From NCBI RefSeq assembly GCF_037975245.1, contig NC_092575.1:4147501-4211500 (forward strand): 64,000 nt of DNA, read 5' to 3'. The stretch comes from Apostichopus japonicus (taxonomy: Eukaryota; Echinodermata; Holothuroidea; Aspidochirotida; Stichopodidae). Each line of letters starts with the position of its first letter. Positions within the stretch are counted from its first letter, which is position 1. The position numbers and the translations under genes are program-made. This document shows, one piece after another, positions 6,168 through 57,420 of this stretch. The notes under the pieces are model-generated. The model had not been told where the DNA came from and did no database searches. It saw only the letters and a program-made list of their open reading frames with translations.

Positions 6168-6470
6168 CTCTCTTAAAATGAGAGACTGAAATTTCAGTCT
6201 AATCGACTGAAATTTCAGTCTAACGATGGATGGGATAAGGGATCAGACTACTTAGACTGAATTCCAGTCTGAAATGCAAAGACTGAAGGTCAGTCTTAAT
6301 TAGACTGAATACTCTTCAGTCTAATAGACTGAAAATCAAACCACTTTAGACTGAACAGTCAGCAGTTTAGACTGATTTATTGCAGCACCAGTCTTAATTA
6401 GATTGAATACTTTCAGTCTATTAGACTGATATCAGACTGAACAGTCGGTCCTTTAGACTGAATTATTACA
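6168..6470. repeat. Left subterminal AGACTGA array of transposon A copy 1
   Basis: About 18 copies of the core AGACTGA or its complement lie in roughly 300 bp, in both orientations, with spacers of 5 to 20 bases. The first two form near-perfect palindromes: AGACTGAAATTTCAGTCT at 6183-6200, and the same with CG in place of the first AG at 6204-6221. Such arrays could bind a transposase or a host factor, or fold into cruciforms. Confidence 0.9.
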
Positions 6471-8357
6471 CATCACAGCTATACTGTCAATCTTATAAAC
6501 GGCAAATTCTGGATTGAACAAGCTTTCTATTGATCCTCCGTGTTGGCTAAGTGCTGGAATTCATCAATATAGTTGCATTTAAGGTCATCAAAGACAACAT
6601 TCAATGATCTGTTAATGCAGGGGAATTTACTGAAAGGTGCTACTTCATGGAGTGACTTCGCCTTCACATCAAATCATGATAGGCTATAAAGACCAGAAAA
6701 TCGTTGTGACAGTCACACACAAAGTACATTAAAAATGGTATTCCATCAAGAAATATAATTGTCAATATCCACCGAACAGTAATTTTATTTCCACTAACCC
6801 ACTTATATATTCTTATTTAATTTTCGTTCATATTAAAAAAAAACTACAATATTCTGAGGGATGTTCAACAAAACATGTTATCTTTCCAACAAACATTCAA
6901 ATTATAAAGATACTTTACATAACAGTGACATATTTTCAGTTCAATATTAATCTGTCAAATTTCTGCTTGAATTGGGCCATCTAAAATGTTCTTTAATTTT
7001 TTTTGAAAAGGATTAGGTGAGCTGAGAACAGATCAGTGGTGTCGCCAATGGGTGGCCTGGGGAACCCCTCCCCCCGAGAGGGAATTCACAAATAGACATA
7101 TCACCAACCAAGATTCAAATGTTTGGCAACACCACTGCAACAGAAAGCACTTTAAATTCTTTGTATGTCACCGCCAGGTGGTAATACCCTGGAATTCATT
7201 GACAACACAGCTGTAAATTGAGTCGTTGTATACCCAGCTGATCCCATCTCTCGATCTCACTGAACTTTAAATTTTCCACTGTAAAGGATATTGTAACTAT
7301 ACGATCCTGCCTTTACAAAAGGGATAGGATGGAAACCCGACGATAGTACAATTGATCTGGTACATTGCCTTTTTTCCAGTTGTGAATCATTAATGTATAG
7401 TAGCAACAATTTCTTAGAATGATTTCAAAATGGGGAAAACATATGACAAATTTTCAGCAGGTTATTTATAAAATATTAGGAATGGTTAAACTATATATCA
7501 GTGCGGTCAACATTTAGTACTTTGTGTTTCAATGATATAGATTGGCGATTGCTGAAAGTCATTATCCAGCACACACAAAACAAAATATTACAAGCAGTTG
7601 ACAGAATGGCACTAACTTCATAATGGCTATTAGATAAACATGAATTATTATATACTGCATTCACGATTTCATGATATGGCATTCATATAAAGCAAATTTG
7701 TATGCAAAAACAGTACATGTGACTATTATACCACCCTCAATTATTTCTTAACTTTCTGATAGTAATCATATAGTGATTGTGATTGGGATTTCAATCAAAT
7801 TTTGAAGTTTTATAAATTATCTGACGTGAATCATTTAATGTCGGCCTCTAGCTGAAAAAGAAATGTCACTCGAGAGTCGACTAAAAAATTGAAACAGTTT
7901 TGACTCATTACATCACTAAAATTAAAAAAATAATAGGGGGGAGAATAATGAGGAAAGGATATTCTCAAATGGAATTTTCTACAGTTACTGACTTTATAAT
8001 AATCAGGTTACTTGCTTTTCATGGAACAAATTATGGAATATTGTGCACAATAAATAATATTAGCTTAATTAATTGCTTAATTAAATAAACCTTCAACATA
8101 GTGAGTGCAGTGAAATGTGGGAACATTAAAGTAAACATTAAAATAACATGCTCGAAAAATCATACAACAAAGTTTTTTGGCAACTAGGTGTTTGTTTAAT
8201 TACATTCATAATTAGATCAGTATCATTAAAAAACATTTTTAAAAACCAAAAATCAATTAAATATTTATTTCTGGAGCCCTCCCTATTTATATAAAACTGT
8301 TGGTAAACTCCGGGTTATCAATTTAACGTTTTAGGGTATGTGTTAGTTACTCCTTAA

Positions 8358-8655
8358 AGGCATTGAAAACTTGTCCCAAACAGCATGCAGCCATCTGAAA
8401 AAGTTAACTTTCTGTTGCTTGCAAGTGATGTTTGTTCGTGTCGCTAAAAAAGACAGACAGTAATGAAACGTGATACCTTGATATCTTTAGCTGGACCTGA
8501 GATGTTCATCGCTGTATCGTTTATACACTGTCTTGTGGGTATTGACCGCAGCTGTATGTACTGACTGTACACTAGTGTCTAATTACCGACGGTAGCAAGC
8601 TGTGTTTGTATTTTCTGGGATCGATGGCAGTGTCTAACACTTCTGTTACACCTCA
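8358..8655 (+). repeat. 300 bp module shared by both A copies and 44945-45235
   Basis: This block, from about AAAGGCATTGAAAACTTG to GTGTCTAACACTTCTG, is closely matched in copy 2 (15797-16092). It is matched in inverted orientation, with clear divergence, at 44945-45235 beside a LINE relic. Homology stops abruptly after the ACACTTCTG. The 60-codon open frame that begins at 8606 is identical in both A copies. However, the surrounding noncoding DNA is equally identical, so this is not evidence for a protein. Confidence 0.75.
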
Positions 8656-9703
8656 TTCGAAACTAGGTCAGATTACCGGCATTAGACGTTCTTTTTGCGC
8701 GAGTCTTCACACCCTTTTAAAGCTACTCCATGCTGACACACGTGGTTCCGGACTACAGAGCAATAAAAAAGTAACATTCACTCCTTGAAGTTACTCCATG
8801 CTGGCTGCCCTTGTAGATGTGGCAAGGATTCGGACGAGAGACTTCACTTCTGTTGGTTGCACAATTCCATACACCATGGAAGCATGGAACTCACAAAACT
8901 AGTGTTGTAGAGGGGGAGCATAGTCTATGTTAAATGTATGTTCTATGCCTCTGTCCCTGCTGACATGGCCAGTTTATTTGCAACAATGAAGAATTGTTTG
9001 GGTTCAATTCTGGCCCGAGAGATAGGATGAAAGGCTGCCAATATTGTCCTTGTCTGCTCTGTGCTGCGCTCTCAATATCTGTGCCCTCCTGTTTGGTGAA
9101 GATAAAAATAAATGTGATAAAGGACAAGCAATATGGTATAAATCAAAACATTCTTGAAAAAAGATATGTTGAGAGGTAGAGTTCGATGTGGACTAGACTA
9201 ATATTTGGGAGAGAATGGAGAAACAAGAACATGACTGGCATTGTACGAAGGAGATACATCAATTCATGATAGGCAGCAATATGTCATCCATGGCAGGTGA
9301 GATGTGTTATGCGAAGGTGGATTCAAATTCAACCTAACATTTATGGGTTATCATGTTGATTTTGGCAGGTACATGGTTACCAAGCAAGGTTTTTTGTTAG
9401 TTGTTTTCAGAAATTTCTCTTTTTAAGGATAAATTGTTCATGACATCTCCTGATTCCATTACATCAGCATAGAAAACCAGTGAACAAGGAATATGATTTA
9501 CATTTTAGCCTACTGATTTCACTAATATGTCTATCTGCTTGTAAAAGAAACTGATTTCATAAGATTAGTGAATGGTAATATTACTGTAAAATCTTATAAT
9601 AAAGACTGATGGCCCACTATATGTTTTTTAAAATAACAAAAGCATACCAATTCTTTTCCAGTTTCCACATGATTTAAATACAATGGTAATGGTTTAACAG
9701 AAT

Positions 9704-10226
9704 CGTGTTAGCTTCATGCTGTAATGGCTGTAGCAGTAACTACATTTTCAAATAATTAGGTGCTTACAATCTATGCATAATAGTACTGTGTTTTGCAATT
9801 TCCTTGAGCATTATTATGTTCAAGTATTTGTTATGAGGTAACCTAGCCTAGATTCATTTGGGACGATTGAGTACATATTGCAGTCCTGACAAGCGTGCTT
9901 ATTCGCACGACGATTGAGTACATATGCAGGACAGGCGGGCTAATTTGCCCGACGATCTGGTACCGTGATAGCTTCATGCTGTAATGGCTGTAGCAGTAAC
10001 TACATTTTGCAAATAATTAAGGGTGCTTACAATCTATGCATAATAGTACTGTGTTTTGCAATTTCTTGAGCATTATTATGTTCAAGTATTTGTTATGAGG
10101 TTAACCTAGCCTAGGCTAGATTCATTTTGGGACGATCGAGTACATATTGCAGGACAAGCGTGCTTATTCGCCCTACGATCTGGTACATATGCAGGACAGG
10201 CGGGCTGATTTGCCCGACGATCGGGT
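9704..10226. repeat. 260 bp tandem duplication inside transposon A copy 1
   Basis: The stretch beginning GTGTTAGCTTCATGCTG at 9704 is repeated from 9964 (GTGATAGCTTCATGCTG) with few changes. It includes TTGAGCATTATTATG and the following GACGAT repeats. Copy 2 has only one such unit (from about 17145). This accounts for most of the length difference between the two A copies. Confidence 0.88.
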
Positions 10227-10270
10227 ACATATGCAGGACCGGCGTGCTTATTCGCCCGACGATCGTGTAA
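9863..10270. repeat. 42 bp minisatellite in transposon A copy 1
   Basis: The unit begins GACGATCGGGTACATATGCA and ends GGCTGATTTGCCC, with unit variants containing CGTGCTTATTCGCCC. In this copy it is split in two groups (9863-9965 and 10130-10270) by the 260 bp duplication. Unit junctions read CCCGACGATCGGG, an inverted repeat able to form a small hairpin. It lies in the presumed first intron of the minus-strand gene. Confidence 0.85.
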
Positions 10271-10428
10271 ATAGGCCCCACCAATTATAACAATAGCCTA
10301 GGCCCTATTTGCTATAGTACAGCCTAGCTAGGCCTACCTCGCGCACAAGCCTAGAATAACTAACGTTACGAACTGCCAAGCTTTTATTCTGTATTAATTG
10401 GAAAACAACAAAAAACATACATACATAC

Positions 10429-10498
10429 CCTCGAACACTGTTATCACTTCTTCGTGGAAACCTTTATTTGTAAGAAAAGTTCTTAAAGACTCAGCCAT
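10429..10498 (-). CDS. First exon of transposon A gene, SAM-domain-like start
   Basis: The minus strand has ATG at 10498 followed by 23 codons and a GTATGTATG donor at 10428, leaving phase 1. The peptide begins MAESLRTFLTNKGF and continues to FE. Its spacing resembles the first helices of a SAM domain (L..FL...GF.EEVI..FE). The same 70 bp exon is intact in copy 2 (17646-17715), whereas the longer open frame upstream of it is shifted by an indel there. That is why I chose this Met. No following exon was found in the element, so the gene is a remnant. From memory, transposon-associated genes in fishes, labelled SAM domain protein 3-like, begin similarly. That link is unverified. Confidence 0.45.
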
Positions 10499-10744
10499 TG
10501 CTAATTGATAACCTTTACTCTGCTTAGACATACGGTCGTCTGTCTCGTTCATGCCTAGCTGTGTGTACGGCGTGCGTACGTACAGTACAGCGAGTACCTG
10601 GCTAAGCGAAGAATATAGTAGTATATATGTACACAAATTGTAGCGCTCGTTGTCACTTATTTCTGTGCGGCGTAGTTGCAAGTTTTCGGATGACGTAGTT
10701 GCATTTCTATTCTCTGATTGGATACATTTTTCAGTGGCATACAG

Positions 10745-10941
10745 AGACTGAAAATGGTAAGATGCCATGCCACATGTGATTAGCTGATTGGTTAATACAG
10801 TCAGTCCAAAACAGCGACTGAACGGTGTAACTGATAATATAGTCTAAGTAGGTGTTTCTCAGTCTAAGCTCAGTGTATAACACTGAAAAAAATTTCAGTC
10901 TCACAGAAGACTGAATTCTTCAGTCTATCATTTTAAGAGAG
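10745..10941. repeat. Right subterminal AGACTGA array of transposon A copy 1
   Basis: About eight copies of the AGACTGA core or close variants (CGACTGA, CAGTCTAA) lie in about 200 bp up to the CATTTTAAGAGAG end. The array is shorter and less regular than at the left end. Confidence 0.88.
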
Positions 10942-10943
10942 TG

Positions 10944-13592: not shown

Positions 13593-13594
13593 TA

Positions 13595-13900
13595 CTCTCT
13601 TAAAATGAGAGACTGAAATTTCAGTCTAATCGACTGAAATTTCAGTCTAATGATGGATGGGATAAGGGATCAGACTACTTAGACTGAATTCCAGTCTGAA
13701 ATGTAAAGACTGAAGGTCAGTCTTAATTAGACTAAATACTCTTCAGTCTAATAGACTGAAAATCAAACCACTTTAGACTGAACAGTCAGCAGTTTAGACT
13801 GATTTATTGCAGCACCAGTCTTAATAAGATTGAATACTTTCAGTCTATAAGACTGATATCAGACTGAACAGTCGGTCCTTTAGACTGAATTATTACACAT
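13595..13900. repeat. Left subterminal AGACTGA array of transposon A copy 2
   Basis: Same arrangement as in copy 1, including the two opening palindromes. A few cores are altered (for example AGACTAA in place of AGACTGA near 13730). Confidence 0.9.
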
Positions 13901-15796
13901 CACAGCTATACTGTCAATTTTATAAATTGCAAATTCTGGATTGAACAAGCTTTTCTATAGATCCTCCGTGTTGGCTAAGTGCTGGAATTCTTCAATAAAG
14001 ATGCAGTTAAGGTCATCAAGACAACATTCAATGATCTGTTAATGCAGGGGAATTTACTGAAAGGTGCTACTTCATGGAGTGACTTCACCTTCACATCCAA
14101 CCATGTTAGGCTATAAAGACCAGAAAATCATTGTGACAGTCACACACAAAGTACATTAAAAATGGTATTCCATCAAGAAATATAATTGTCAATATCCACA
14201 GAACAGTAATTTTATTCCCACTAACCCACTTATATATTCTTATATAATTTTTAATATATTAAAAAAAACAGAAATCAAAACTACAATATTCTGAGGGATG
14301 TTCAACAAAACATGTTATCTTTGCAACAAACGTTCAAATTATAAAGATACTTTACATAACAGTGACATATTTTCAGTTCAATATTAATCTGTCAAATTTC
14401 TGCTTGAATTGGGCCTGGATCTAAAATGTTCTTTAATTTTTTTGGAAAGGATTAGGTGAGCTGAGAACAGATCAGTGGTGTCGCCAATGGGTGGCCTGGG
14501 GAACCCCTCCCCCGAGAAGGAATTCACAAATAGACATATCACCAACCAAGATTCAAATGTCTGGCAACACCACTGTAACAGAAAGCACTTTAAATTCTTT
14601 GTATGTCACCACCAGGTGGTAATACCCTGGAATTCATTGACAACACAGCTGTAAATTGAGTGGTTATATACCCAGCTGATCCCATCTCCCGATCTCACTG
14701 AACTTTAAATTTTCCACTGTAAAGGATATAGTAACTATACGATCCTGCCGTTACAAAAGGGATATGATGGAAACACGACGATAGTACAATGGATCTGGTA
14801 CATTGCCTTTTTTCCAGTTGTGAATCATTAATGTATAGTAGCAACAATTTTCTTAGAATGATTTCAAAATGGGGAAAACATATGACAAATTTTCAGCAGG
14901 TTATTTATAAAATATTAGGAATGGTCAAACTATATATCAGTGCGGTGAACATTTAATACTTTGTGTTTCAATGATATAGATTGGCGATTGCTGAAAGTCA
15001 TTATCCAGCACACACAAAACAAAATGTTACAAGCAAGCAGTTGACAGAATGGCACAAACTTCATAATGGCTATTAGATAAACATGAATTATTATATACTG
15101 CATTCACGATTTCATGATATGGCATTCATATAAAGCAAATTTGTATGCAAAAACAGTACATGTGACTATTATACCACCCTCAATTATTTCTTAACTTTCT
15201 GATAGTAATCATATATAGTGATTTTGATTGGGATTTCAATCAAATTTTAAAGTTTTATAAATTATCTGACGTGAATCCTTTAATGTCGGCCTCTAGCTGA
15301 AAAAGAAATGTCACTCGAGAGTCGACTAAAAAATTGAAAACAGTTTTGACTCATTACATCACTAAAAATGGGGGGGGGGGGGGGAATAATGAGGAAAGGA
15401 TATTCTCAAATGGAATTTTCTACAGTTACTGACTTTATAATAATCAGGTTACTTGCTTTTCATGGAACAAATTATGGAATATTGTGCACAATAAATAATA
15501 TTAGCTTAATTAATTGCTTAATTAAATAAACCTTCAACATAGTGAGTGCAGTGAAATGTAGGAACATTAAAGTAAACATTAAAATAACATGCTCGAAAAA
15601 TCATACAACAAAGTTTTTTTGGCAACTAGGTGTTTGTTTAATTACATTCATAATTAGATCAGTATCATTAAAAAACATTTTTAAAAACCAAAAATCAAAT
15701 AAATATTTATTTCTGGAGCCCTCCCTATTCATATAAAACTGTTTGTAAACTCCGGGTAATCAATTTAACGTTTTAGGGTATGTGTTAGTTACTCCT

Positions 15797-16092
15797 TAAA
15801 GGCATTGAAGATTTGTCCTAAACAGCATGCAGCCATCTGAAAAAGTTAACTTTCTGTTGCTTGCAAGTGATGTTTGTTCGTGTCGCTAAAAAAGACAGAC
15901 AGTAATGAAACGTGATACCTTGATATCTTTAGCTGGACCTGAGATGTTCATCGCTGTATCGTTTATACACTGTAATGTGGGTATTGACCGTAGCTGTATG
16001 TACTGACTGTACACTAGTGTCTAATTACCGACGGTAGCAAGCTGTGTTTGTATTTTCTGGGATCGATGGCAGTGTCTAACACTTCTGTTACA
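15797..16092 (+). repeat. 300 bp module in transposon A copy 2
   Basis: Counterpart of 8358-8655, nearly identical to it, and related in inverted orientation to 44945-45235. Confidence 0.75.
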
Positions 16093-17305
16093 CCTCATTC
16101 GAAACTAGGTCAGATTACCGGCATTAGACGTTCTTTTTGCGCGAGTCTTCACACCCTTTTAAAGCTACTCCATGCTGACACACGTGGTTCCGGACTACAG
16201 AGCAATAAAAAAGTAACATTCACTCCTTGAAGTAACTCCATGCTGGCTGCCCTTATAGATGTGGCATGGATATGGACGAGAGACTTCACTTCTGTTGGTT
16301 GCAAAATTCCATACACCATGGAAGCATGGAACTCACAAAACTAGTGTTGTAGAGGGGGAGCATAGTCTATGTTAAATGTATGTTCTACGCCTCTGTCCCA
16401 GCTGGAATGGCCAGTTTATCTGCCACAATGAAGAATTGTTTGGGGTTCAATTCTGGTCCGAGAGATAGGATGAAAGGCTGTCAATATTGTCCTTGTCTGC
16501 CCTGTGCTGCACTCTCAATATCTGTGCCCTCCTGTTTGGTGAAGATAAAAATAAATGTGATAAAGGACAAGCAATATGGTATAAATCAAAACATTCTTAA
16601 AAAAAGATATGTTGAGAGGTAGAGAGACTAGACTAGAATAATATTTAGGAGAGAATGGAGGAACAAGAACATGACTGGCATTGTACAAAGGAGATATATC
16701 AATTCACGATAGGCAGCAATATGTCATCCATGGCGGGTGAGATGTGTTATGTGAAGGTGGATTCAAATTCAACCTAACATTTATGGGTTATCATGTTGAT
16801 TTTGGCAGGTACATGGTTACCAAGCAAGGTTTGTTGTTAGTTGTTTTCAGAAATTTCTCTTTTTAAGGATAAATTGTTCATGACATCTCCTGATTCCATT
16901 ACATCAGCATAGAAAACCAGTGAACAAGGAATATGATTTACATTTTAGCCTACTGATTTCACTAATATGTCTATCTGCTTGTAAAAGAAACTGATTTCAT
17001 AACATTAGTAAATGGTAATATTACTGTAAAATCTTATAATAAAGACTGATGGCCCACTATATGTTTAATAAAATAACAAAAGCATACCAATTCTTTTCCA
17101 GTTTCCACATGATTTAAATACAATGGTAATGGTTTAACAGAATCGTGTTAGCTTCATGCTGTAATGGCTGTAGAAGTCACTACATTTTTCAAATAATTAA
17201 GGGTGCTTACAATCTATGCATAATAGTACTGTGTTTTGCAATTTCTTGAGCATTATTATGTCCAAGTATTTGTTATGAGGTTAACCTAGCCTAGATTCAT
17301 TTTGG

Positions 17306-17490
17306 GACGATCGAGTACATACTGCAGGACAAGCGTGCTTATTCGCCCGACGATCGGGTACATATGCAGGACAGGCGGGCTGATTTGCCCGACGATCGGG
17401 TACATACGCAGGACAGGCGGGCTGATTTGCCCGACGATCGGGTACATATGCAGGACCGGCGTGCTTATTCGCCCGACGATCGTGTTAATA
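17306..17490. repeat. 42 bp minisatellite in transposon A copy 2
   Basis: Four consecutive units of 42-43 bp. The two inner units are almost the same (GGCGGGCTGATTTGCCC) and the two outer ones share the variant CGTGCTTATTCGCCC. The unit is a multiple of three, so frames stay open on both strands (17286-17544). Those frames are repeat artefacts. Confidence 0.92.
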
Positions 17491-17645
17491 GGCCCCACCA
17501 ATTATAACAACAGCCTAGGCCCTATTTGCTATAGTACAGCCTAGCTAGGCCTACCTCGCGCACAAGCCTAGAATAACTAACGTTACGAACTGCCAAGCTT
17601 TTATTCTGTATTAATTGGAAAACAACAAAAAACATACATACATAC

Positions 17646-17715
17646 CCTCGAACACTGTTATCACTTCTTCGTGGAAACCTTTATTTGTAAGAAAAGTTCT
17701 TAAAGACTCAGCCAT
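17646..17715 (-). CDS. First exon of transposon A gene, copy 2
   Basis: The same 70 bp exon as 10429-10498, with ATG at 17715 and the GTATGTATG donor at 17645. The encoded peptide is unchanged although the DNA around it has indels. No downstream exon is recognisable in the element. Confidence 0.42.
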
Positions 17716-17959
17716 TGCTAATTTATAACCTTTACTCTAGCTTAGACATACGGTCGTCTGTCTCGTTCATGCCTAGCTGTGTGTACGGCGTGCGTACGTA
17801 CAGTACAGCGAGTACCTGGCTAAGCGAAGAATATAGTAGTATATATGTACACAAGTTGTAGCGCTCGTTGTCACACTTATTTTTGTGCGGCGTATTTGCA
17901 AGTTTTCGGATGACGTAGGCGCATTTCTGTTCTCTGATTGGATACATTTTTCAGTGGAA

Positions 17960-18162
17960 TACAGAGACTGAAAATGGTAAGATGACATGCCACATGTGAT
18001 TAGCTGATTGGTTAATAAAGTCAGTCCAAAACAGCGACTGAACGGTGTAACTGATAATACAGTCTAAGTAGAGTGTTTCTCAGTCTAAACTCAGTGTATA
18101 ACACTGAAAAAAATTTCAGTCTCAAAGAAGACTGAATTCTTCAGTCTAACATTTTAAGAGAG
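17960..18162. repeat. Right subterminal AGACTGA array of transposon A copy 2
   Basis: About eight AGACTGA-type cores lead to the terminal CATTTTAAGAGAG, as in copy 1. Confidence 0.88.
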
Positions 18163-18164
18163 TA

Positions 18165-21073: not shown

Positions 21074-21143
<70 letters not shown>

Positions 21144-39524: not shown

Positions 39525-39614
<90 letters not shown>

Positions 39615-39756: not shown

Positions 39757-39830
39757 AGCGTCCATAGCTTAGTGGTTAGGGTGTCCGCGTACAGGAAAGC
39801 CCGGGTTCGAATCCCGGTGGAGGCTGGAAG
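39757..39830 (+). repeat. tRNA-like sequence, probable SINE head
   Basis: TAGCTTAGTGGTTAGGG is a good A box. CCGGGTTCGAATCCCGG is a complete T arm with a perfect B box. The putative acceptor stem (GTCCATA against TGGAGGC) pairs poorly and the anticodon stem has mismatches. A 3' stretch and a (TA)n tract follow. It could be a tRNA pseudogene, but a truncated SINE is more likely. It is the best-preserved Pol III promoter in the window. Confidence 0.6.
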
Positions 39831-40021: not shown

Positions 40022-40022
<1 letters not shown>

Positions 40023-44944: not shown

Positions 44945-45235
44945 GAAGTGTTAGACACCACCATCGATCCCAGAAAATGCACACACAGCTTGCTACCGTC
45001 GGTAATTAGACACTAGTGCAGTCAATACATACAGCTACGGTCAATACCTACAACACAGTGTACATAGCAGCGACGGACATCTCAGGTCTAGATACAGATA
45101 GGAAGGTATCACGTTTCATTACTGTCTGCATTTCGTAGCGACAGGAGGAAAACTTCACTTGTAAGCAACGGAAAGTTAACTTTTTCAGAGCACGGCACAC
45201 GATTTGGGGCGAGTCTTCAATGCCTTAAAAGAAGA
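44945..45235 (-). repeat. Diverged copy of the transposon A 300 bp module
   Basis: Read on the minus strand this matches 8358-8655 and 15797-16092: AAAAAGTTAACTTTC, AGACAGTAATGAAACGTGATACC-like, and CTAATTACCGACGGTAGCAA are all shared. Roughly one base in six differs. It ends exactly where the LINE relic begins. Confidence 0.75.
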
Positions 45236-46647
45236 ACAATAATGACAGACCCTCCGATTTTATACAGAGTGTAGTTTTCATTTTCCTAAAAATTATTTTT
45301 TATTTTTTTTCAAATAGCACACCTGACACTTATATCCAAAGAGGGCATTGATTTTTCGTCTCCGTACTTGAAATACGAATTTGCAAACACTGCTACGACC
45401 TTGACCAACACTCAGGTCAGGGAATGACACCCCTATGATGATCCTCAAATTGTAGTGAACTGTTCAGTAAGGAGCTGTACAGTATGTGACGTTCATGTCC
45501 GCATAACTGTTATTTTCTTTTAATTTAGGACGCAATGTTCATTACCTTAGATAATTAATGTGATTGTGTTTCTTGATAATCTCACCACATATGTAAAAAT
45601 TGTACTTAATTTTGCAACGGTTTCTCCCCGACAAGGTGTTATATTTCATTCACAAAGCAAGCATGCAAATCTTAAAGGTACACATAGCCATAAAATTCGC
45701 TTCTAAAACAGTAATGATAATAAACAGATCCCTCTATGAATCTATTGATATGGATGGGTAATGAAAGCTATTTTCTGTTGAATGTTTCCAAATATTGGAA
45801 TAACTGTCTTGCAAATTGACCAAACAGCAACGGTCACGGTAATTTAAAAGATCACACAGTTGGCGGGTATGAACCAGTAAGAATGTGTTCACTTACATCT
45901 CAAAATGGCACAGTTACAATTTATAGTAACAATAATTCGAATTATTAAATAAGGCTAGTTTAAAAAAAAAACCTTAAACTCAAATAAAATGCAGTAGTCG
46001 ATCGTTAGGGTAGGGCAACAGGCATTGCAAATACAACAGCCTAGGTATGATTAACCCACAGACATTCACATTTATCACAAAGTACCTTCTCTAATCGAGC
46101 TGCAAACCAAACGTTTGAAAACTTCAGCACCAGTACATAGTCACCATCGTCTTCAACAGGAATCCAGTAACTAAACGTATCTACATGAAAGCGTTCTGTT
46201 TGATATAAGATAGCATCTTGTTAGGGCACTCTTTGAATGTTTAGGGCTTTACTATAGTCAGACGGGGTACCCATAGGATATATGCGGTTGAAATCCGCCT
46301 GCTAGTGTACCCCATTAACGTCTATGTGTTCAGGTCTCCCACAATTGACGGCAAAGATAACTTCTGGGGCCCCGCTCGAGAAACACAAAAAGTCAGACCA
46401 AAATAAAAGGAATACACATGCATCAAGGATGTTCCATGGCTCCAATCTAACTACTTGAATGACAGACTTGCCTCGATAAATTAGGGATTATTTTCTTCAG
46501 TTAGCCTATGCTGGCTATATTTCGCATTGAAATGTTCCTAGGTTGCACGAAGGACACATAAATTGCCGCCTGCACAATTACAACCAGTTCATGGAAAGTA
46601 AAAGCTCGGCCAGGTAGCCTATGATGTGGTCTGACTCAAGTTGAAAT
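45236..46647. other. Gene-free stretch
   Basis: No exon or repeat family recognised before the segmental duplication begins. Confidence 0.45.
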
Positions 46648-49600
46648 CTGGTTATACGAGCGACACATTACCGGTACCTAGGCCTATACTCTGTACATGT
46701 AGTAAAACACAGGCCTACACTGCGATTCAATGTAGTGCAACATCACGGTAGAATCACATCGAGTTTGAAGAAAATTAAAAATGATTTCGTTTAGTAAATG
46801 ACCGACTTCTTCCCTGTCCCAACAGTAGCTCAAATTATATTCAAATAAATGGGGCTCTAATGATGCGTTAAAATTTATCAGTCTCATTGTGTTTATTTAA
46901 CATACCGTCTCCATTCACTTGCAAAGCTCGACAAGATGATCAATGAAAATAAAATAAAGTATAATATCGAGACTGCCAGAGATCAGTTGTGATAAGATTC
47001 TCTCATTTGAATCATTAATAAGACACTCCGATGTTTAAAGAAAGTGCTGCTTGAAATAACTTGAAAAAAAAATATATTGCCCAGAACGGAGCATGTAATC
47101 TCCTCCCTACGGTTAAAGTTGAAAAGATATTGAATCAACTGGGTCTGTCTTTCAATTTCTTCTTCTTCTGTTTTATTTGCACCGATCTGATGTTCAGTAA
47201 CTGTAAAAACATGTAATTTATTACATAATAACATAACAAAGTAAATATAATGAACTCAAATAATGGCTAGCAACCAAAATGCTTTATCTGAAGCATGAAG
47301 AATATTCCAACTTGCTAAGTTGTGTTTGGTTAGTTTTTTTGATAACTTTTTACATTTGAACATTCAGGTGAAAACCATTACTTACTTTCAAATAGCATAT
47401 TCACTGAAAGGCTGCTAGACTTTCTCTGAGCCCAAGATTTCGCCCTGATTTCGCAGTCTGGTCATCCAAAATAGCCAAAGTTAATAATTCTGATTTATTA
47501 GCAACACTTAGTCAAGGCTTGTGTCATAATTGCCTCCCATTTTCCATTTTGATAAGGACTGTTTTGGACAATACTGGGCATATTTCCATGCATATCTACT
47601 AAGTTTGGTTTGGTCTTACTAGCACTCCCTTGGTACAGTGGGGTCCAAAATGCTAAAGGGCAGTTGCGTAGGACGCTATCACAGAGTGAGGGAGGGGTGG
47701 GGTGACGCTGGGGTCTAGGGTGTATTCCCCAGAGGAACTTTCGTTTATAGATTCTACAGTGACCCAAATGAGACGTTGGAAATGTTAACCTTTTTTTCTC
47801 GAAAATTTCCTTTTCTATCGTAATGTGGACTATTTCTCAAAAGTGTATTTTATCTCGGATATGCGACTTGTTCGTAGACAAGTGCTGACTTGATAAACAT
47901 CGACTTTTATGTTCACGGTAGATTTCGGTGTTAAATCAGTACAATGCATATAACACAAAACACTCAAAAAGAGAACAGCGCCACTATTTCCAACACAACA
48001 CAAAACACCCAAAAATACCCCAAAACGCCTAAAAAGAGAACAGCGCCACAATTTCCAATTTTGATTTAAGCTGCTTTACGAAAACAAGATCAACGCAGAA
48101 GTTCCAAGTTGATGGCGTGAATAACTGCATAAGTGTATTCCCTATATAAAGGGAATTTCTCTCTATTCGGTGGTGTTTATTTGTAATTGATTTCGTTATG
48201 TATTTGTTACAAAATATTATGGCAACATAACAACTGATCCAGCGTGTTGAAATGGGAAGACAACACTCACTCATAGACTGTTGGAACATACACTGCAAAG
48301 GACTTTTCAACATTTGGGGGGGGGGGTGGGGAGGAAGACGGAGAGACGGAGGGGAGTCTGAGGTCAGGCGCGTAGCCAGGATTTTGTCATGGGGAGGGTG
48401 CTTCAGGTTGCCAAGACCCTTCGATGGCCTGGGGTCCCCCGAAGCACTGGGGTATTTACAAAATTGTGGGCATTAGAATGAAGCATTTAACTATCTTCAA
48501 ATGGTATTGGATGCGCAAAAAAAAAGACCACAAAAATAATTCAACTTGACTATTTAATTTTACGATAGCTTAACGCAGACTAACGGCCAGTCGATTTGAT
48601 GATGCACAGGGCTTGTGGGTGGGAAGGATGGATGATGGTGGAGTTCCATGGGACTTTGGAAATATAATTTCCCTCTTAAACTATATCTACGATGGGTGCG
48701 GAAAAAAAATAAAAATTGTAAAACATTTTAGTGATGTTTTACTTCAGTTTTCATTGCAAAGGTTATCCATTATTTTATAATTTCCCCTTATTTTTTCTCG
48801 CCTCCTTTCCTTTCCATAATATTTATTATCAAGTTTACCTTGCTGCGATATTTGCACGTCGATTTACAAACTAGTTTGCTGGTGGCCAACCTTACGTGGT
48901 ATCATTATTTTGATGGAGAGACTATTGTCATATCCAGGTTTTGTAACAAAAGGAGCGTCATTGAATGGCCGTCTTGGGGGAGGGGTCCAAGAGGAGGGGA
49001 AAGTTTTTCTTTTGAAAGGGTGCTTAAATACTAAATGGTGCTATCATTCATGCATATTTTCAAATATGTTTATGTACTAAAATTTGCTAATTTTTGTAAC
49101 AGGATGCTGACGGTGATAAAGGAGAGGTACATGTTTTTCCTCTCGGTATCCGTTAGTCGGGGCACTAGGAAAACCTAAAAATCACTTCGGATAAATAAAG
49201 AGTTAAAACACTTGACTAAAAATCTCCTACCGGTGTATTCAACCATGAACATAATAGATATGAAAAGAAGGTTACAGCAAGCGAAGCACGCAAGGTTTTT
49301 ATAGAGATTTATATAGAGCAAGAACTTGTACAAGAATGCAGTCTGTTCGCTTCTGTGCCAAGTGCTAAATTAAGTGTGAAACAGAAACTGAGATGGCAAA
49401 GCCCTCGAAGCGCTTGAAATTTCAATGACTTAAGTCAAGCAATGAAGGAAAGGAATCAAAAGAGGTTGAAAAGCAACAGGGCTGTACATTTCGTTGTATG
49501 GAACATACTAATGAAATACCCAAAGTCTCATCTTTAATGTGTCGACTGGTCTTAACGGTCACACCCCACACCACCCATAGCTGCGCCATGCACACATTAT

Positions 49601-49876
49601 GCCTCAAGATTTATAATTAAACATAAAATGCTAAAGCAAATTATTCAACTAGATGCCTTTTTGTCTTCTGTTAATACAACAATCCGAAGGACTGACTTTG
49701 AATTTCTCTCATACGTCTTATTTGTACATGTAAATTTGCAAAATCAGCAACGACATCTGACTTTTGGTAATATTTTATCTCCAATATTATACCCATAACC
49801 CACCCATACAGTTCATATAGCATAGTAACTTTGAAGATTACAATATTTCACGTACACCATTATATACAGACTTCAA

Positions 49877-49920
<44 letters not shown>
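46648..49920 (+). repeat. Segmental duplication, copy 2 (partner 2250-6150)
   Basis: Collinear with 2250-6150 in the same orientation but shorter. The stretch matching 2365-2690 is missing, and 48240-48840 is extra, with a poly-G run and a GGCGCGTAGCCAGGA end typical of a nonautonomous transposon. A minus-strand frame at 46983-47234 covers the counterpart of the candidate exon at 3200-3297. Another at 47498-47767 covers the block at 3895-4125. The copy ends in a (TA)n tract at 49880-49920, and the LINE follows directly. Confidence 0.8.
49880..49920. repeat. (TA)n microsatellite
   Basis: TA dinucleotides at the right edge of segmental duplication copy 2, matching 6117-6150 in position. Confidence 0.95.
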
Positions 49921-49925
<5 letters not shown>

Positions 49926-49977
49926 GTAAAGAGAAGGAAACATATAGATATCTTTTATCTTAGTACTTTTCTAGGAG

Positions 49978-50833: not shown

Positions 50834-50835
50834 TA

Positions 50836-51105
50836 CACAGAAAACACAAGTACTCACAAATGCGAGTAAACTTAGATCCCTGATTTTACTATCCGTGGTA
50901 GTATTTATACTTGCCGGTATTGAGTAAAGATACTGATTGGAGGAGTTGATTTACTAGTTTAAATGTTTAAAATTACTAGGCAGATAGTGAAAGTACTGCT
51001 TTCAGTGTTGTCCCTGATTTCACTAACCAAAGTAGTAACATTACATGGTCAGGCATGTAAACTTACTAATACATATTTATAGTACTGATATGGTAGTTAG
51101 TAGAT
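50836..51105. repeat. Left subterminal TACTA/GAGTA array of transposon B
   Basis: Around a dozen short motifs of the type AGTACTCAC, GCGAGTAAA, TTTACTA, GGTAGTA, AAGTACTG and AAGTAGTAA recur in both orientations. The right end (about 54930-55407) has a comparable, looser array (CAGTACTTC, CACTAGTTG, TGAGTAACTT, CGAGTAAGC). Confidence 0.7.
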
Positions 51106-51156
51106 ATACACAGATGAGCGATGATAACAAACAGAAATTTAAAGTTTAATTCTCTT

Positions 51157-51162
51157 TTTATT
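51157..51162 (-). terminator. Polyadenylation signal AATAAA, transposon B gene
   Basis: TTTATT on the plus strand is AATAAA on the minus strand. It lies about 960 bp beyond the stop of the C-terminal frame at 52123 and just inside the left subterminal array. This suits a transcript that runs leftward. Confidence 0.35.
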
Positions 51163-52122
51163 GAACTTGTAAAGAACACTTTCATATTCCAACATCTCAA
51201 AACACAAATACCATGTTTTTGATAATGAAGTTCTTAAGATACATATGATAATAAACTGATGCTGTACTTCCCCATGACATACTAAACCTCTGACAATAAT
51301 CAAGCAGCAAAATGCATGAGAAATTACGATTAACTTTGAGAGAAACACAACTGCTACTGTGGTAAAGTCAGTTGACAAAATCCATCTTCTTAGGTTCGTA
51401 TAAATATTGCAATAGGTCTCTAAAGTTTTTTGGCAACTTTTACTTAAAAACAGCTACTTTATACACTTAAACTCAATGAGACCTCACCGACACATTTGCA
51501 AGGACAAACCCTATAAACTGAATTAGGTGAAATACAAGAAACACAGATAAATGACTAACACAGATAAATAAACAACCATGAACAAAACACAGAACAAAAC
51601 GTTTAAATCACTGATTTCTTTAAGTATGCACATCCTGCAATGTGATACTGTTAGCTTTTGATTTAAACAAATGCAATAACAGAAAACTTATATGTATTTT
51701 GGAACTGTTGAATCAGTAATGCTAATCATTTGGTAATCAATCAAGCTTAAAAAAATCAATTAATTCTGGCCTTGACTTATCTTTACTTTTGCGATCAAAT
51801 CAGGCAAGCTCAGACTGAAACACTAATGCTGGTTTCTATGTAAACCAGCCCTTGCTTTATTTTGATGGTATAATTTAACCACCATGACCATGCTTTGAGC
51901 TTTCCATCCTGTTATCCCACAAAGAGATTTCTTCTGATTATCCAAAATTCAGAAAAAGTCCCGATTCTACGTCAAAACAAATAGAAATGTCTTCTCTCGA
52001 CAAGTACATAAGTGATCTAATTAAGGCAAGAAATATTGCAACAGTGTGCAACAAAAATGTAAAAGTAACGAACACAAAAAGATAAAAATCCTCAGGTAGC
52101 AAAGCTTTGCATCATATAAACA

Positions 52123-52485
52123 TTAAAAGTCTTTATATTTTGTTACGAAAGTTGCAACAGATCTTGGGATCTTTTTAGATTTAAAGCCCAATACCAAATC
52201 CAGGAAAAATAAAGTCTTGTTACTTTTCTTTGGGAAACTGATGTTGAATGTATAAAAGGCGGCAATCAAGCATTCAAACCCTTCCATGATTGAGTCTACT
52301 TCACACACAACTTCGTTCTCCGCCTTAATCTGAATGTGTTTTGCACTTAGGTGATTCGGTCCTGATCCAATGAGACATGGCGCTGAGGACAGAGGCCCGA
52401 CGTTGTCAATCTTTCTGAACCACAGGTGTGGAGATAGTTCTTGCCATGTTTCCTTCTTATATGTTTTTTTAGAGAATTGACAATA
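52123..52485 (-). CDS. C-terminal frame of transposon B protein (remnant)
   Basis: The minus-strand frame is open from 52485 to the stop at 52123-52125. A CTGTGGTTCAG acceptor-like site at 52415 would give a 292 bp last exon. The C-terminal part reads CEVDSIMEGFECLIAAFYTF, then NISFPKK and KTLFFLDLVLGF. From memory, the proteins labelled SAM domain protein 3-like in fish transposons end in a similar pattern (ALxxLFxxYYxFNLxY...TLEFIQ..F.GI). That resemblance is unverified. If right, it joins B to the SAM-like exon in family A. The central part of such a protein is not found, so this copy is probably internally deleted. Confidence 0.42.
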   Translation of the reverse strand, partial: YCQFSKKTYKKETWQELSPHLWFRKIDNVGPLSSAPCLIGSGPNHLSAKHIQIKAENEVVCEVDSIMEGFECLIAAFYTFNISFPKKSNKTLFFLDLVLGFKSKKIPRSVATFVTKYKDF

Positions 52486-52679
52486 CTATATGAGGCTTCA
52501 CAATGATTAATTCCACAGAAAACTCTGAAGTTCTGTTCTCCTGAGTGGACCATTTGAAGATGGTTAAGAAGGTTAATTCGAGTTCTGCTCTCATATCTAC
52601 AATGGCAGCATCTGAAGATGCCTGAATGCTGTGTGTACACATTTTCTGAATCAGTATAACTGAAAGAAGAAGAAGCCAT
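52347..52679 (-). CDS. C2H2 zinc-finger open frame in transposon B
   Basis: The frame starts at ATG 52679 and is open for 110 codons. Two C2H2-type fingers follow a Ser/Tyr-rich start. Finger 1 is FRCCHCRYESRTRINLLNH, with HLQMVH giving its histidine pair. Finger 2 is FRVFCGINHC, with LKKHIRRKH giving its pair. The wide C-x4-C of finger 2 is typical of zinc fingers carried by animal transposons, as far as I recall. The tail after HGKNY overlaps the C-terminal frame in another register and is probably not translated. It would bind DNA, perhaps the subterminal arrays. Confidence 0.6.
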   Translation of the reverse strand: MASSSFSYTDSENVYTQHSGIFRCCHCRYESRTRINLLNHLQMVHSGEQNFRVFCGINHCEASYSIVNSLKKHIRRKHGKNYLHTCGSERLTTSGLCPQRHVSLDQDRIT

Positions 52680-54930
52680 TCTTAGTTGAAGACTTGAGAA
52701 AGTATTTCAGTATTGTCACAATGGACTAGCTCTTCCAGCTAAAATTTTCAATCAAATCAGGGAGGCCAATTAAGAATGTACCAACTTTAATGTGAAGAAA
52801 TCTTGCTTGCCCTTGAAGTACAGCACCTGTTTGAAAATGAGAGGCATAAAAAAGTTTTGCATTAAACAAAGCAAAGGCACTACCATGGAAAGTTAAACTC
52901 TAATTCAAGTGCTTTCATAATGTGCAATTTAACAGAAACAGTTCATTAGTGTTGAACAGGAGGCCAGGTTTAGTTAGCAAGGAAATCCTCCTAAAGGAGT
53001 TTTCGAAGTCAGTGACTCTTTGTTGGTAACTGTAGTGAAATATATTTATCATGACAAGATAAGGACACAAATGATTGTCTGGATTTGCAAGAAAAGGCAA
53101 GCAGGTTTTTAAAATTCAAAGTGGCTGTCAAATTAGGCACCTTGATGTGTAGTACACCATGTGCACCACATGTCTATGCCAATAATATAAAACAGCTACT
53201 ATAATCAAGAAACACAGGCCTGTACATAGTACATGTATCTTACAGTACTCAATTACACTTGAACACTGACCTGTGTGTGTACCTTATTTACTAGGGTAAG
53301 TCTATGGTTAAAGCTGTACAATCATCAGTTCAGATGATTCATATTCTCCCAACATAGTTAAGTTTAGCTCTTCCTCGCACCCCCACAGATTAGTCTCATT
53401 CCCCCACATCTATCTTTCTAACACAACAAGTAGCTTGCCAACAATTTTCAAAGAATACTGTATCCTGAGTACCTTGCAGTAATTTGAGAATGCTGTACAA
53501 TGTTTTGTGCAGTTTAACCTAGTAGCCTTGTTCACATTAAAGAACGCAAGAGCGGTTATTAAGTCCGGGAGGAGGATTTTATCAGTTAACTTAGAACAAG
53601 ACGCCTTAACAGTTTAGAACGATTTAGTTTCATAAGTCCGCTTGCACGATTAACATACTGCGCAGGCTTGAAAAGGTTATATCAGCTGTTCAAATTTCCC
53701 TGTGGTTTGCTGTTGTTACATGTGCTGTACTAATTATACTACTCCGTACACCACTGCACATAAAAAGATTACTGTATCAAGCCAGTCCGTACCACTACCA
53801 GTACATGTGCAGTACGTGTGCATGTAGAAAATGTGAGGAGCGGAACTGTGGGCTATTGTGTGAGTTTATGTACACACTATACGTACACAGCCTTACCGCG
53901 GATTGAGACGATAATCGTTTCTTGCAGTTAAATTTCGTCTGAATTAGTTGTAATTTTGTTGATTCTACAGTTGTTTTGTTATGGTTCTGAGCAATTATGA
54001 CTTGAAATTTGTTAAAATAATCATAAAACTGTCTATCATATGAATAAGTGCAACTTGTGATAGAAGGTAATAGGCTGCATTACATATGTTCATGAAAATC
54101 TATATCTAGCGTTTTCTGGGGTTTTACTTTTGCAAATCTAGCGTTTTTTGGGCATATGCCGCTGGTAACGCTGACTACATTGTTCAATTCACAGTAGTTA
54201 CCACACCAATCACATCATAATAATGTGTCCAATACTTTCACATACTATTTTTATAACTTGGGCAGTACGTGTAGGCAGCTAAGCTGGCGGGCTTATTACA
54301 GAATCACTTATAATATGCACTTGGATCCTACATACGTTCAATGCAGTGCATTGCTGCAGTGCAAAAAAAAAACGTCAAGCTAAACGTAAATTGCTTATGC
54401 CTATGGAGATTGCTTCCATAGCATACAGTACGCCAGTAGTCATGTGATGATCATATTGTTAGTAATATTTTTCCGCCATTACCTTTGACTATTTGGAAAG
54501 GCGAAATTCGGTTGTTGCCGTGTATTTCCGCAATAATACTAACTTTGCTACACTAATTGGGCAGTTTGTTGTAAGCTGACTTTGTTTGGACGAAATGACT
54601 GGTTCAAAAATCAGGCATATCAATGCAAATGCTTTGTGTTGGGTTAACAACGTTGTAGTTAAACCGTCACTCAATACGTTAGGCTAACCGCAGAGTTTAA
54701 CACGAGGCCTCTCCCGCTAATGATCAGTAAGATGTTCAGAATAATGTGATATAATTGCATCAAAATTAGAAAATATTTATTTTAACTACCTAAAAATAAC
54801 ATACATCATAGTACTAAACAAAACACATGACATCTTACCTTGATTTTCCAAAATATCAACAAATATGTCCATAAATTAGAAGGAGCTGTTGTGTCTTATC
54901 GTGCATGTCTTGGTCGTTGCGTCGCTCTGG
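52680..54930. other. Interior of transposon B without recognised exons
   Basis: The minus-strand frames at 52915-53100 and 54489-54674 have no domain or splice support. The upstream part of the minus-strand gene and its promoter should lie here. I see no clear SAM-like first exon comparable to that of family A. Confidence 0.4.
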
Positions 54931-55409
54931 TACTACATAGTACTAACTGAATGGCCTGGGCAGTACTTCTACGAAAGGCAGTTCGCACAATTACGAGGCG
55001 GGTAGTTTAATCGCTATGTAGAGTTGTAGAATCACTAGTTGATCACTCTTAATACTTGGAAACAATCTGTAAATGTACGTGTCACGTTAGTATTTCGACC
55101 AACTACAACATTCTTAATCTACTCACGATGAGTAACTTCGTTCACATCGTTTATTGTAAGCATTAAGGAAGTATCGAAACTCAATGCATGAGTAAGTTTA
55201 CGAATTAGATCAATGAGTTGACTACCTTAGAATTCGGCGTCTAGCATCTGTACACATTGCCCCATGTATTTTCAGTACTGATTAAAATTTGCAAGTACAT
55301 GTATGCGCATATTTTGTGAAATAAGAGTCGCACTACGAGTTGAGGTGCATCCCTACTCATTAAAGGTATAACATCTTACTAACAGACGAGTAAGCAGATT
55401 TTCTGTGTA

Positions 55410-55567
55410 GATAGATAGATATTTATTTAGCCAATCATATAAAAATACAATGGAAATTGGTTGATAACAAGAGCTCAAAACATTAAAAATTGTAAACAAC
55501 AAATGAGATGTATAATAATGCAAAGAGATATGAAAACGTTCCTATAAAATATTAAGATGAACAAACT
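55410..55567 (-). mobile_element. 3' tail of a LINE, minus strand, inserted in the split LINE
   Basis: Read on the minus strand it ends GATTGGCTAAATAAATATC followed by (TATC)n. This is an AATAAA-containing 3' untranslated end with a tetranucleotide tail, as in CR1/L2-type elements. It is about 155 bp long, heavily 5'-truncated, and lies between transposon B and the resumed LINE frame. Confidence 0.6.
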
Positions 55568-56772
55568 ATATAGCACGAAAACCCTTCTGCTCAAAAGTAT
55601 GTTCTGACATTTTCACTGGAATGGAGAATCAAGAAGTTAGTTTACTGTGTATTCTTGACCTACGTTTGGCGTTTGATTCAATTGATCACAATGCCCTATT
55701 TTCACTTTTGAGAAATTGGTATGGTTTAACTGACCAGTCCCTTGGTTGGTTCACCAGCTATCTCACCAACAGATCCCAGTCTGTTTTGATTAGAGAAAAG
55801 CATTCCGACAGACTTCCACTTCCTTACGTTGTCCCACGAGGTTGTTGTACTGGTCCTGTTTGCTTTCTATCCTATCTTTCATCAATGTTTGATATTGTGT
55901 CGACACATCAAAAGTTATACTGATGATATGCAGGTTTACAAGTCTTTCCGTCCTGGGGGTAAAATTGAGTCTGAAGCAACACAAAACTTAGAAAATTGCA
56001 TTGATGATATTAGAGGATGTCTAACTCTTAAATGGCTAACTGTTTGAATGATGATAAAACTGAAGTTATGTACCTTGGTTCAACACAACAGCTCGCAATG
56101 TGACGTAAGCAAGACATCACCGTAGGTCAGAACAAAATTCAATGTGTTTCTTCCGCTAGGAACCTTGGTGCTCTGTTTTATGTGGAACTAAACTTTAAAA
56201 AGCACATCAACAGGATTTGCCACACTGGTTAATTTAATCTTAGGCGAATAAGGGCGATAAAGCCATATCTTGACCAAAGTTCAGCTGTGACCCTGATTAA
56301 TGCATTCATTTCGAGTCACTTAGATTATTTCTATTCTCTTCTATACGGATACTCTAAAAAAGTTACAGCATCTTCAGAAGTCTGCAGCTAGAACTATGGC
56401 TGGTATTACTTATATAAATAATCCAGGTTCTCTGTATTCTATACTCTCTACACTAGCTGCCAGTCAAAGTATAGAATCCTTTTTAAGATATCTGTATTGG
56501 TCCGCAATTGTTTGTCCGGGAACACCCCCGTGTACCTGAGTTAATGCACTGTTCACTATGCCCCTACCCGATTACTACGCTCTAACGCTGCTAACTTGCT
56601 CCGTATCCATAGGTGTAAAACTGAAATGGGTAAAAGGCGCTTTGAATATTGCGGCCCCTATATTCGGAACTCGCTTCCCCTAGTAGACACTCGTAATATC
56701 ACAGATCTAGCTAATTTTAAATCTAGCATAAAGACTGTCTATTTTAACTTAGCTTTTGTTGGTTACTTGTAA
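55568..56772 (+). pseudogene. LINE (CR1/L2-like) ORF2, 3' half
   Basis: The reverse transcriptase resumes with STKTLLLK, LCILDLRLAFDSIDHNALF, LRNWYGL, NRSQSVLI, LPYVVPRGC and, after a frameshift, SYTDDMQVY. The catalytic motif is YTDD where YADD or FADD is usual (55916-55927). Later frames read KPYLDQSSAVTLINAFISSH and, at the C-terminus, YCGPYIRNSLPLVDTRNI and FKSSIKTVYFNLAF before a stop near 56770. Several frameshifts and stops make it inactive. It continues the frame broken at 50833. Confidence 0.85.
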
Positions 56773-56972
56773 TGTCTTAGTACAGAGTATGTTTTATTAC
56801 TGGTGCTTTATAGAAATACCAAAGAAATAAGATATGACTCATAATTGACAAATAATGTTTTAGAAAACATAGAATAATTTTCGGCAACCCTGGGACCTTC
56901 GTCAGCAATACTTGGCAGTCGAATGAAAGTACAAACTGTAACACAATGAAAGTATGACACTAAATAAGTGTA

Positions 56973-57420
56973 CACTCTAAAACCAACCTGGTGAGAGTTC
57001 ACCAGGAACTGGTGAAAATTTCACCAGGAGCTGTGTTTATATGCCACACTCCATATCCTGGTTGTTTTCAACAGGTTTTCTGGTGAATGAGATTTTAACA
57101 AAATCCTGGTAGACAAATAACCAGGAAATCCTGGCTAAATTTCCTGGTTAGATTTTTCCTCTATCCTAGTTAATATCAAAGGGTATTTCACCTCATTTCC
57201 TGGTTAAATTAACCAACATCTACTGGTAAATGTGACAGCATCCTGGTTAATTTCAAACGTATTCCACCTCTTTCCTAGTTAAATTAAACATTTCCAGATT
57301 GATGTGACTACTATCCTGGTTAATACCAATGGGTATTTCACCTCATTACTGGTTAATTCACCATTTTCCTTGTTAATACTATTAGGTATACCACCTTATC
57401 CTCGATTAAGTTGCAATGCA
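56973..57420. mobile_element. Left end of DNA transposon family C
   Basis: CACTCTAAAACC begins directly after a TA dinucleotide. About 17 copies of CCTGGTTAA, CCTGGTGA or TTCACCAGG lie in both orientations in the next 450 bp. This is the same design as the left ends of families A and B. An AATAAA on the minus strand follows at 57481-57486, as in B. No matching right end (TTTTAGAGTG) was found up to 64000. With the nested inserts at 59072 and 61626 it may lie beyond the window, or be lost. Confidence 0.72.

Follow-up and report, generated by a model that had tools for sequence, protein, structure and literature searches.

CACTA-like architecture of three repeat families in a 64-kb window of Apostichopus japonicus and their relation to zinc-finger transposase genes of the same genome

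Plant CACTA elements such as En/Spm and Tgmt* are described as having short conserved ends, family-specific subterminal repeats, a tnp2-type DDE transposase accompanied by a second protein, and non-autonomous deletion derivatives that are moved in trans (PMC2613891, PMC4158355). In En/Spm the transposase is TnpD, while the subterminal repeats are bound by TnpA; transposition needs the two proteins, and a defective element can still be moved in trans provided that it has kept the required sites (PMC2613891). The subterminal motif varies with the family, and the same report proposes that the binding proteins are correspondingly diverse (PMC2613891). Animal relatives, the TRC elements (SmTRC1), were described in 2006 with 2-bp direct repeats in 7 of 14 copies and with matches in the sea urchin and the zebrafish (PMC1636069), and CMC-EnSpm elements are given as 4.69% of the zebrafish genome (PMC4746887). 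We analysed a stretch of 64,000 nucleotides of Apostichopus japonicus (NCBI RefSeq assembly GCF_037975245.1, contig NC_092575.1, positions 4,147,501 to 4,211,500), called the window below, in which an earlier, sequence-only reading had recognised three transposon families, A, B and C, and had proposed for them a shared architecture and a single superfamily. Our results make it likely that A, B and probably C are non-autonomous members of one CACTA-like group, the longer relatives of which lie elsewhere in the same genome, appear from their sequences to be intact and have a zinc-finger DDE transposase frame.

Subterminal motifs peculiar to each family, together with a dedicated binder, belong to the established plan of CACTA elements and are not new in kind. 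The elements studied here resemble plant CACTA elements in the short conserved ends, the family-specific subterminal repeats, the tnp2-type DDE transposase with a putative second protein, and the deletion derivatives, presumably moved in trans. They differ from them in having ends of the form CWCW..AAAA and 2-bp duplications rather than CACTA ends and 3-bp duplications (PMC2613891, PMC4158355), and in a transposase with C2H2 fingers at its N-terminus that stays under the PF02992 cut-off when the genome is searched. With TRC elements they have in common the animal hosts, the 2-bp direct repeats and the Transposase_21 relationship, whereas TRC elements have CCC ends and a recognisable Transposase_21 domain, and C2H2 fingers are unmentioned in the parts of that report consulted (PMC1636069). 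The TRC-type CCC end core was absent here, the ends reading CTC or CAC. The ESTA elements are EnSpm-like with TA duplications, a likeness to the present elements at the level of description; together with Plavaka they are placed in the CMCT clade, whose transposases have C(2)C and H(3-4)H after the second D and before the last E and whose duplications measure 2-5 bp, and both were described from fungi, whereas the host here is an animal (PMC12730594). No description of a C2H2-bearing animal EnSpm element was found in a literature search that covered titles and the starts of abstracts and had Repbase outside its reach. Fish genomes hold repeats starting ACTCTAAAA or CACTGTAAAA, whose ends, motif arrays and predicted proteins appear to be similar to those described here, F8 for example ending ..TTTTTACAGTG before TA.

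DNA searches, searches with protein queries and the search with PF02992 spanned the whole genome (672 Mb, 35 contigs). The elements of the window, none of which is assigned a strand, are the following.

6168..10941, family A copy A1, 4774 bp, TG/TG duplication
13595..18162, family A copy A2 (also recovered as L001), 4568 bp, TA/TA duplication, 0.31% from the majority of 25 aligned rows
50836..55407, family B copy, 4572 bp, TA/TA duplication, non-autonomous deletion derivative
56973..58200, family C end, CACTCTAAAA preceded by TA, first 451 bp with a CCTGGT array, repeated DNA within

The ends of family A are CTCTCTTAAAATG..CATTTTAAGAGAG and those of family B are CACAGAAAA..TTTTCTGTG. The search with A gave 2518 first-look candidates, the best 30 of which were scored and fetched; among the 31 sequences examined (30 loci and A1), 24 were complete, that is, with both ends exact, and 7 were without an exact end. 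An exact 2-bp duplication flanked all 24 complete copies (TA in 19, TG in 4 and CA in 1) and a 3-bp duplication flanked none, several of the duplications sitting in TA repeats where exact placement is impossible. Because every complete copy has an exact 2-bp duplication, the TG flank that had been noted as the one departure from TA is in A1 a true TG/TG duplication and not a broken TA. The best 40 of 335 candidates were scored for B and yielded another 11 copies, full or nearly so, at 95-97% identity, and an exact 2-bp duplication was present in 10 of 10 copies (the window copy and all 9 fetched of the 11), being TA in 5, CA in 3, TG in 1 and TT in 1. The length of the target duplication, which had been proposed as a check on kinship, was therefore 2 bp in both families (24/24 and 10/10). 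The common length near 4.57 kb, also pointed out for A and B, proved accidental and was dropped as evidence of kinship: lengths vary, 20 of the 25 measured A rows being 4.75-4.85 kb long, and A2 is without a tandem unit of roughly 260 bp.

The copies of A were nearly identical, with 23 of the 25 aligned rows (22 places, A2 being counted also as L001) at 0.19-0.64% from the majority sequence; A1 stood at 2.69%, and row L025 was misaligned (46%) and uninformative. The majority sequence contains no frame longer than 96 residues, so that A is non-autonomous. Family B is the older of the two, since its copies are only 95-97% alike. The best 40 of 137 candidates were scored for C, and copies elsewhere, compared in pieces along the first 1.2 kb, were mostly 70-93% alike, a few short pieces excepted; C is thus a real and older repeat because the DNA inside its end recurs in the genome at this level, and the window copy of C was the most diverged of the three families. 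An exact match to a right end of C was absent up to the end of the window, where the sole match with one mismatch (63156) has no TA after it, and none within one mismatch was present in the 6 kb beyond. The architecture claimed for all three families is largely borne out, standing for A and B as complete repeated elements with A-rich inverted ends and arrays, and for C as one end and its array.

The arrays inside the ends, again without an assigned strand, were as follows, their enrichment being measured against dinucleotide shuffles (300 or 500).

6168..6517, left array of A1, AGACTGA 10 forward, 5 reverse
10592..10941, right array of A1, AGACTGA 2 forward, 3 reverse
13595..13944, left array of A2, AGACTGA 9 forward, 5 reverse
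17813..18162, right array of A2, AGACTGA 2 forward, 3 reverse
50836..51135, left array of B, AGTA 9 forward, 9 reverse
55008..55407, right array of B, AGTA 7 forward, 5 reverse

In A1, AGACTGA occurred 15 times on the two strands of the left 350 bp (mean 0.24, maximum 3 in 300 shuffles), 5 times in the right 350 bp (shuffle mean 0.08, maximum 1) and once in the 4-kb middle. In B, the left 300 bp held 18 AGTA where shuffling gave 7.1 on average (18 was reached in 0 of 500 shuffles), the right 400 bp held 12 where shuffling gave 6.6 (8 of 500 shuffles), and the 3.9-kb middle held 53, a slight excess over 40.1 (10 of 500 shuffles). The longer GAGTA occurred 5 times in the right 400 bp of B against 1.2 (1/500) and 3 times in the left part against 1.1 (39/500), and was not enriched in the middle. 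AGTAC/GTACT is no mark of the B ends because the middle (20 against 7.8, maximum 18 in 300 shuffles) is as far above chance as the left part (6 against 1.5). The first 451 bp of C held CCTGGT 7 times forward and 3 times in reverse (shuffle mean 0.32, maximum 3) and the next 1.2 kb held none, while the longer motif CCTGGTTAA was found in the forward orientation only (3 and 0). The motifs of A and B lie in both orientations at both ends, and CCTGGT lies in both at the known end of C. The earlier description of arrays in both orientations is accordingly borne out by AGACTGA and CCTGGT, less so by B, where the array is weaker and less specific to the ends, and not by CCTGGTTAA. The accompanying idea that the transposase binds many subterminal sites and that each family evolved its own motif was half right. 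The array of plant En/Spm is bound by a second element protein, TnpA, and the elements studied here likewise appear to have a second gene; motif divergence between related CACTA families is already known (PMC2613891).

Two coding remnants on the minus strand tie B to longer elements.

52350..52706, minus strand, C2H2 zinc fingers, predicted transposase N-terminus, E 4.1e-18 with a profile of 10 transposases excluding B
52126..52485, minus strand, predicted tail exon, tblastn with the F7 tail E 9.8e-8, the F8 tail E 9.2e-7 and the F5 tail E 2.5e-10

The query of these two remnants gave 206 genome candidates, and among the best 150 of them, which were scored, the finger part of B matched the start of long open frames; where both parts matched, tail exons lay 6-12 kb further on, on the same strand. 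The counterpart of the B tail exon sits downstream of the transposase in the longer relatives, and on these sequence comparisons B is a deletion derivative in which the C2H2 start of the transposase and the tail exon have been retained. In tblastn, the tails of B, F5, F7 and F8 recovered each other, with E values of 2.5e-10 to 9.2e-7 in the listed pairs. These tblastn matches are the independent support for the tail, and the score of B in the four-sequence tail profile is no evidence because its own tail was part of that profile. The claim that gene traces run on the minus strand thus applies to B, no convincing trace being present in A.

With the F4 protein as query, the best 54 of 547 candidates were scored and gave 57 rows, of which 36 were frames of at least 800 residues without a stop (806-931 residues); the fetched F7 copy was among the rows with a stop. 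Ten transposases aligned at 28-45% identity to the first sequence. The cysteines and histidines of the fingers, D325, D419, C439-x2-C442 and H509-D510 were invariant in 10 of 10, and H648-x3-H652 and E672 were present in all 9 that reach that far, one frame being broken earlier. The F5 element (C18:5571945-5583278) is about 11.3 kb long, with a second copy of about 12.1 kb on contig C9, and both copies contain a transposase frame of 842 residues without a stop. It starts CACAGAAAAC and finishes TTTTCTGTG, like the CACAGAAAA..TTTTCTGTG of B, and has AGTAAA/GAGTA arrays at both ends, of the AGTA type of B and nearly absent from its middle; its duplications were 2 bp in both copies (TA/TA and CA/CA). 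The order of F5 is end, transposase, tail exon and other end, and B has the same order minus the middle. In F8, a transposase frame of 885 residues is followed by a frame of 425 residues and the tail exon; one end, which in two copies reads ..TTTTTTACAGTG with TA behind it and is also given as ..TTTTTACAGTG before TA, shows no strong motif. The downstream coding sequence of the longer relatives looks like a second gene, and the tail would then belong to a second protein. A weak, tail-like frame on the minus strand of the window (35758-35991, E 0.09) is possibly due to chance.

The CMC-type clade is named as CACTA/EnSpm-Mirage-Chapaev-Transib. The pattern D - D - C(2)C - H(3-4)H - E is given as the signature of the CMC/CMCT clade, together with mostly CA..TG ends and duplications of 2-5 bp (PMC12730594). 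This pattern was present in the ten B-linked transposases as far as their frames reach, B itself keeping fingers and tail only. The duplications were of 2 bp throughout, in A (24/24), B (10/10) and F5 (2/2), and 5'-CA..TG-3' ends were found in B, F5 and the single F8 end; the one end of C starts with CA and A starts with CT. PF02992 (CACTA tnp2, Transposase_21) matched 4 of the 10 transposases weakly, the first of them at 12.7 bits against a cut-off of 28.6, with a best E of 0.0019. The genome search with PF02992 gave 57 rows, of which 26 belonged, on comparison with the loci found above, to the B-linked families, all below the cut-off (E 0.022 or worse) and all copies of few families, not independent matches. 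A piece of 100 residues from the best over-cut-off protein aligned with the B-linked transposases over 98 residues, including the second D and C-x2-C, and scored 10.6 bits, whereas none of 1000 shuffles exceeded 2.8, the best BLASTP E being 1.9e-5 against 11 sequences; the homology to tnp2 is that of one piece of one over-cut-off protein. The B-linked transposases therefore look, in their sequence, like relatives of CACTA transposases and not like recognised members of PF02992. The genome holds 15 places over the PF02992 cut-off, among them C11:3835198, C17:15312093 and C16:1371798, with several frames of 800-880 residues, which are more usual CACTA transposases. A sequence search of the PDB returned 13 weak matches (E 0.064 or worse), none of them named a transposase.

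The proposal of one superfamily is thus upheld in part. It is supported by the 2-bp duplication, its common bias (TA over TG and CA), the similar ends of A and B, the protein link of B, and F5 with the ends and motif type of B, while A and C are tied to no transposase. Of a common protein, for which a search had been suggested, B holds remnants that match the long transposases, and no significant trace was found in the tested A copies or in C. As neither has a detected protein link, A and C are placed within the CACTA-like group by architecture, which for A means the bias of its duplications together with its ends and arrays, and for C the one end and array. With the transposase and tail profiles, nothing significant was found in the A copies L005, L007 and L021 or in A of the window (best E at an A locus 1.1), nor in C of the window or two further C copies. 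By-eye comparison of positions found no transposase within any A- or C-ended element, among the C copies found and the first 100 of 2215 A-type ends, which span contig C1 and part of contig C2, where there are few transposase loci. The single near pair of a C copy and a transposase locus, on contig C17 and about 13 kb apart, was judged a coincidence because F5 has its own ends.

Several findings weigh against placing the three families in one CACTA-like group. Profile and tblastn searches detected no protein link for A or C, the ends of A start CTC and not CA, and the motif of B is mildly frequent in its middle too. The PF02992 cut-off was reached by 0 of the 26 family rows, and 0 of the 15 over-cut-off rows belong to these families. 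Three pieces of F8 downstream of its transposase matched no Pfam family, and an intact parent of B was not found in the genome, F5 being only a cousin at 44.8% identity over 58 finger residues.

The missing protein trace and the CTC end of A would also be expected if only B were CACTA-like and A and C belonged to other superfamilies that came independently to 2-bp, mostly TA duplications, the shared plan being convergence. This reading, which we consider unlikely, gains further from C having just one known end and no measured duplication and from the absence of a transposase beside any of the A-type ends compared. Against it stand the similar duplication bias of A and B in the counts given above, the alignment of the ends as CWCW..AAAA and the arrays in both orientations in each family. 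A very improbable explanation is that of ordinary miniature inverted-repeat transposable elements of Tc1/mariner or PHIS type with TA duplications; TA is indeed the commonest target, but the TG/TG, CA/CA and TT/TT duplications depart from the strict TA of Tc1/mariner, the B-linked proteins bear the CMC-type signature, and no Tc1/mariner or PHIS transposase model was among the 16 Pfam families that these proteins matched. For B this explanation is already largely refuted. The arrays could also have arisen close to the ends as neutral expansions of microsatellite type and play no part in transposition, a possibility to which the modest array of B, its core slightly enriched in the middle as well, and the F8 end without a strong motif lend something. 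We find it quite unlikely, the A motif being concentrated at the two ends with hardly any occurrence in between, like GAGTA/AGTAAA in F5, and the arrays of plant CACTA elements being bound and needed (PMC2613891).

Under the CACTA-like reading, the transposase would cut at the short A-rich ends and duplicate 2 bp of target, with TA preferred. The subterminal arrays would be recognised by element proteins that pair the two ends, the reader being either the C2H2 fingers of the transposase or the second element protein. Elements without genes that retain both ends and arrays may be mobilised in trans, as in En/Spm, and the steps between binding and cutting would follow the analogy of TnpD and TnpA. 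The many near-identical, gene-less copies of A are what mobilisation in trans would lead one to expect. What we observed are the ends, duplications and arrays in A and B, the end and array of C, the protein remnants of B, the long open transposase frames and the ends common to F5 and B; catalysis, trans-mobilisation, the array binder and the placing of A and C are inferred. The group appears to have moved recently, since 36 of the 57 F4-query rows are at least 800 residues long without a stop and 23 of the 25 A rows lie within 0.64% of the majority.

If this placing holds, about a dozen related families, in a rough grouping by frame length and identity, are present in one genome, with long open transposase frames, differing finger sequences and apparently recent activity. 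This would allow the co-evolution of a DNA-binding domain and a subterminal motif to be examined, a question raised for plant CACTA elements and hard to address there since the binding proteins share little sequence (PMC2613891). A 2-bp TA/TG/CA duplication, CWCW..AAAA ends and C2H2 fingers plus a CMC-type core are offered as features for classifiers, which would serve for proteins such as these without any Pfam transposase match over cut-off. It is conceivable, though we hold it doubtful, that these elements form a distinct animal CACTA-like lineage whose transposase gained C2H2 fingers, fingers and arrays diverging together into several mutually exclusive transposition systems per genome (AGACTGA, AGTA, CCTGGTTAA, TTGGGTAA and more).

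Some candidates were tried and rejected. A copy of 8.8 kb with A ends on contig C1 (TG/TG), considered as an intact A, holds a nested repeat and, in the 751 bp sampled, no transposase. This sample (L076, C1:11665900-11666650) is rich in TTGGGTAA/TTACCCA, densely arrayed in both orientations, and the nested repeat probably represents a further family of this style, its motif resembling the CCTGGTTAA of C. Frames at 58534-58795 of the window resembled a C tail exon by eye and were unsupported by the copies L077 and L078 and by the four-tail profile. Among relatives of B with the left end only, L050 has the first 1.2 kb of B and then no transposase, its long frame being G-protein-coupled-receptor-like by eye, and in L049 the likeness, at 80%, is confined to the end. 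A putative first exon was also marked by eye in A1.

10429..10498, minus strand, tentative and unproven first exon in A1, MAESLRTFLTNKGFHEEVITVFEG then GTATGT

Its frame had no Pfam match and no profile support; we take MAESLRTFLTNKGFHEEVITVFEG to resemble the start of a SAM domain, a presumed and unproven likeness.

Other features of the window and its flank were recorded. Tandem units lie inside A at 9704-10228 and 17306-17493, where copies differ by the unit of roughly 260 bp, and a 300-bp piece of the A interior (8351-8650) recurs inverted at 44938-45232 with 84% identity. Two stretches of about 3-4 kb, 2246-6156 and 46639-49913, have blocks 69-93% identical and represent a dispersed repeat; A1 starts 12 bp after the first of them ends. 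Between B and C, broken plus-strand frames resembling reverse transcriptase (55561-56772) are, by eye, probably a decayed long interspersed nuclear element. A cluster of internally repeated blocks, 72-83% alike, occupies 27435-32170. About 4 kb past the end of the window, a THAP-domain-like frame (MPVRCVVGGC..) was seen by eye at about 4082-4370 of L051. The window otherwise contains introns and immunoglobulin-like and G-protein-coupled-receptor-like frames, and one transfer RNA gene match (39758-39825) was its sole Rfam match at gathering score.

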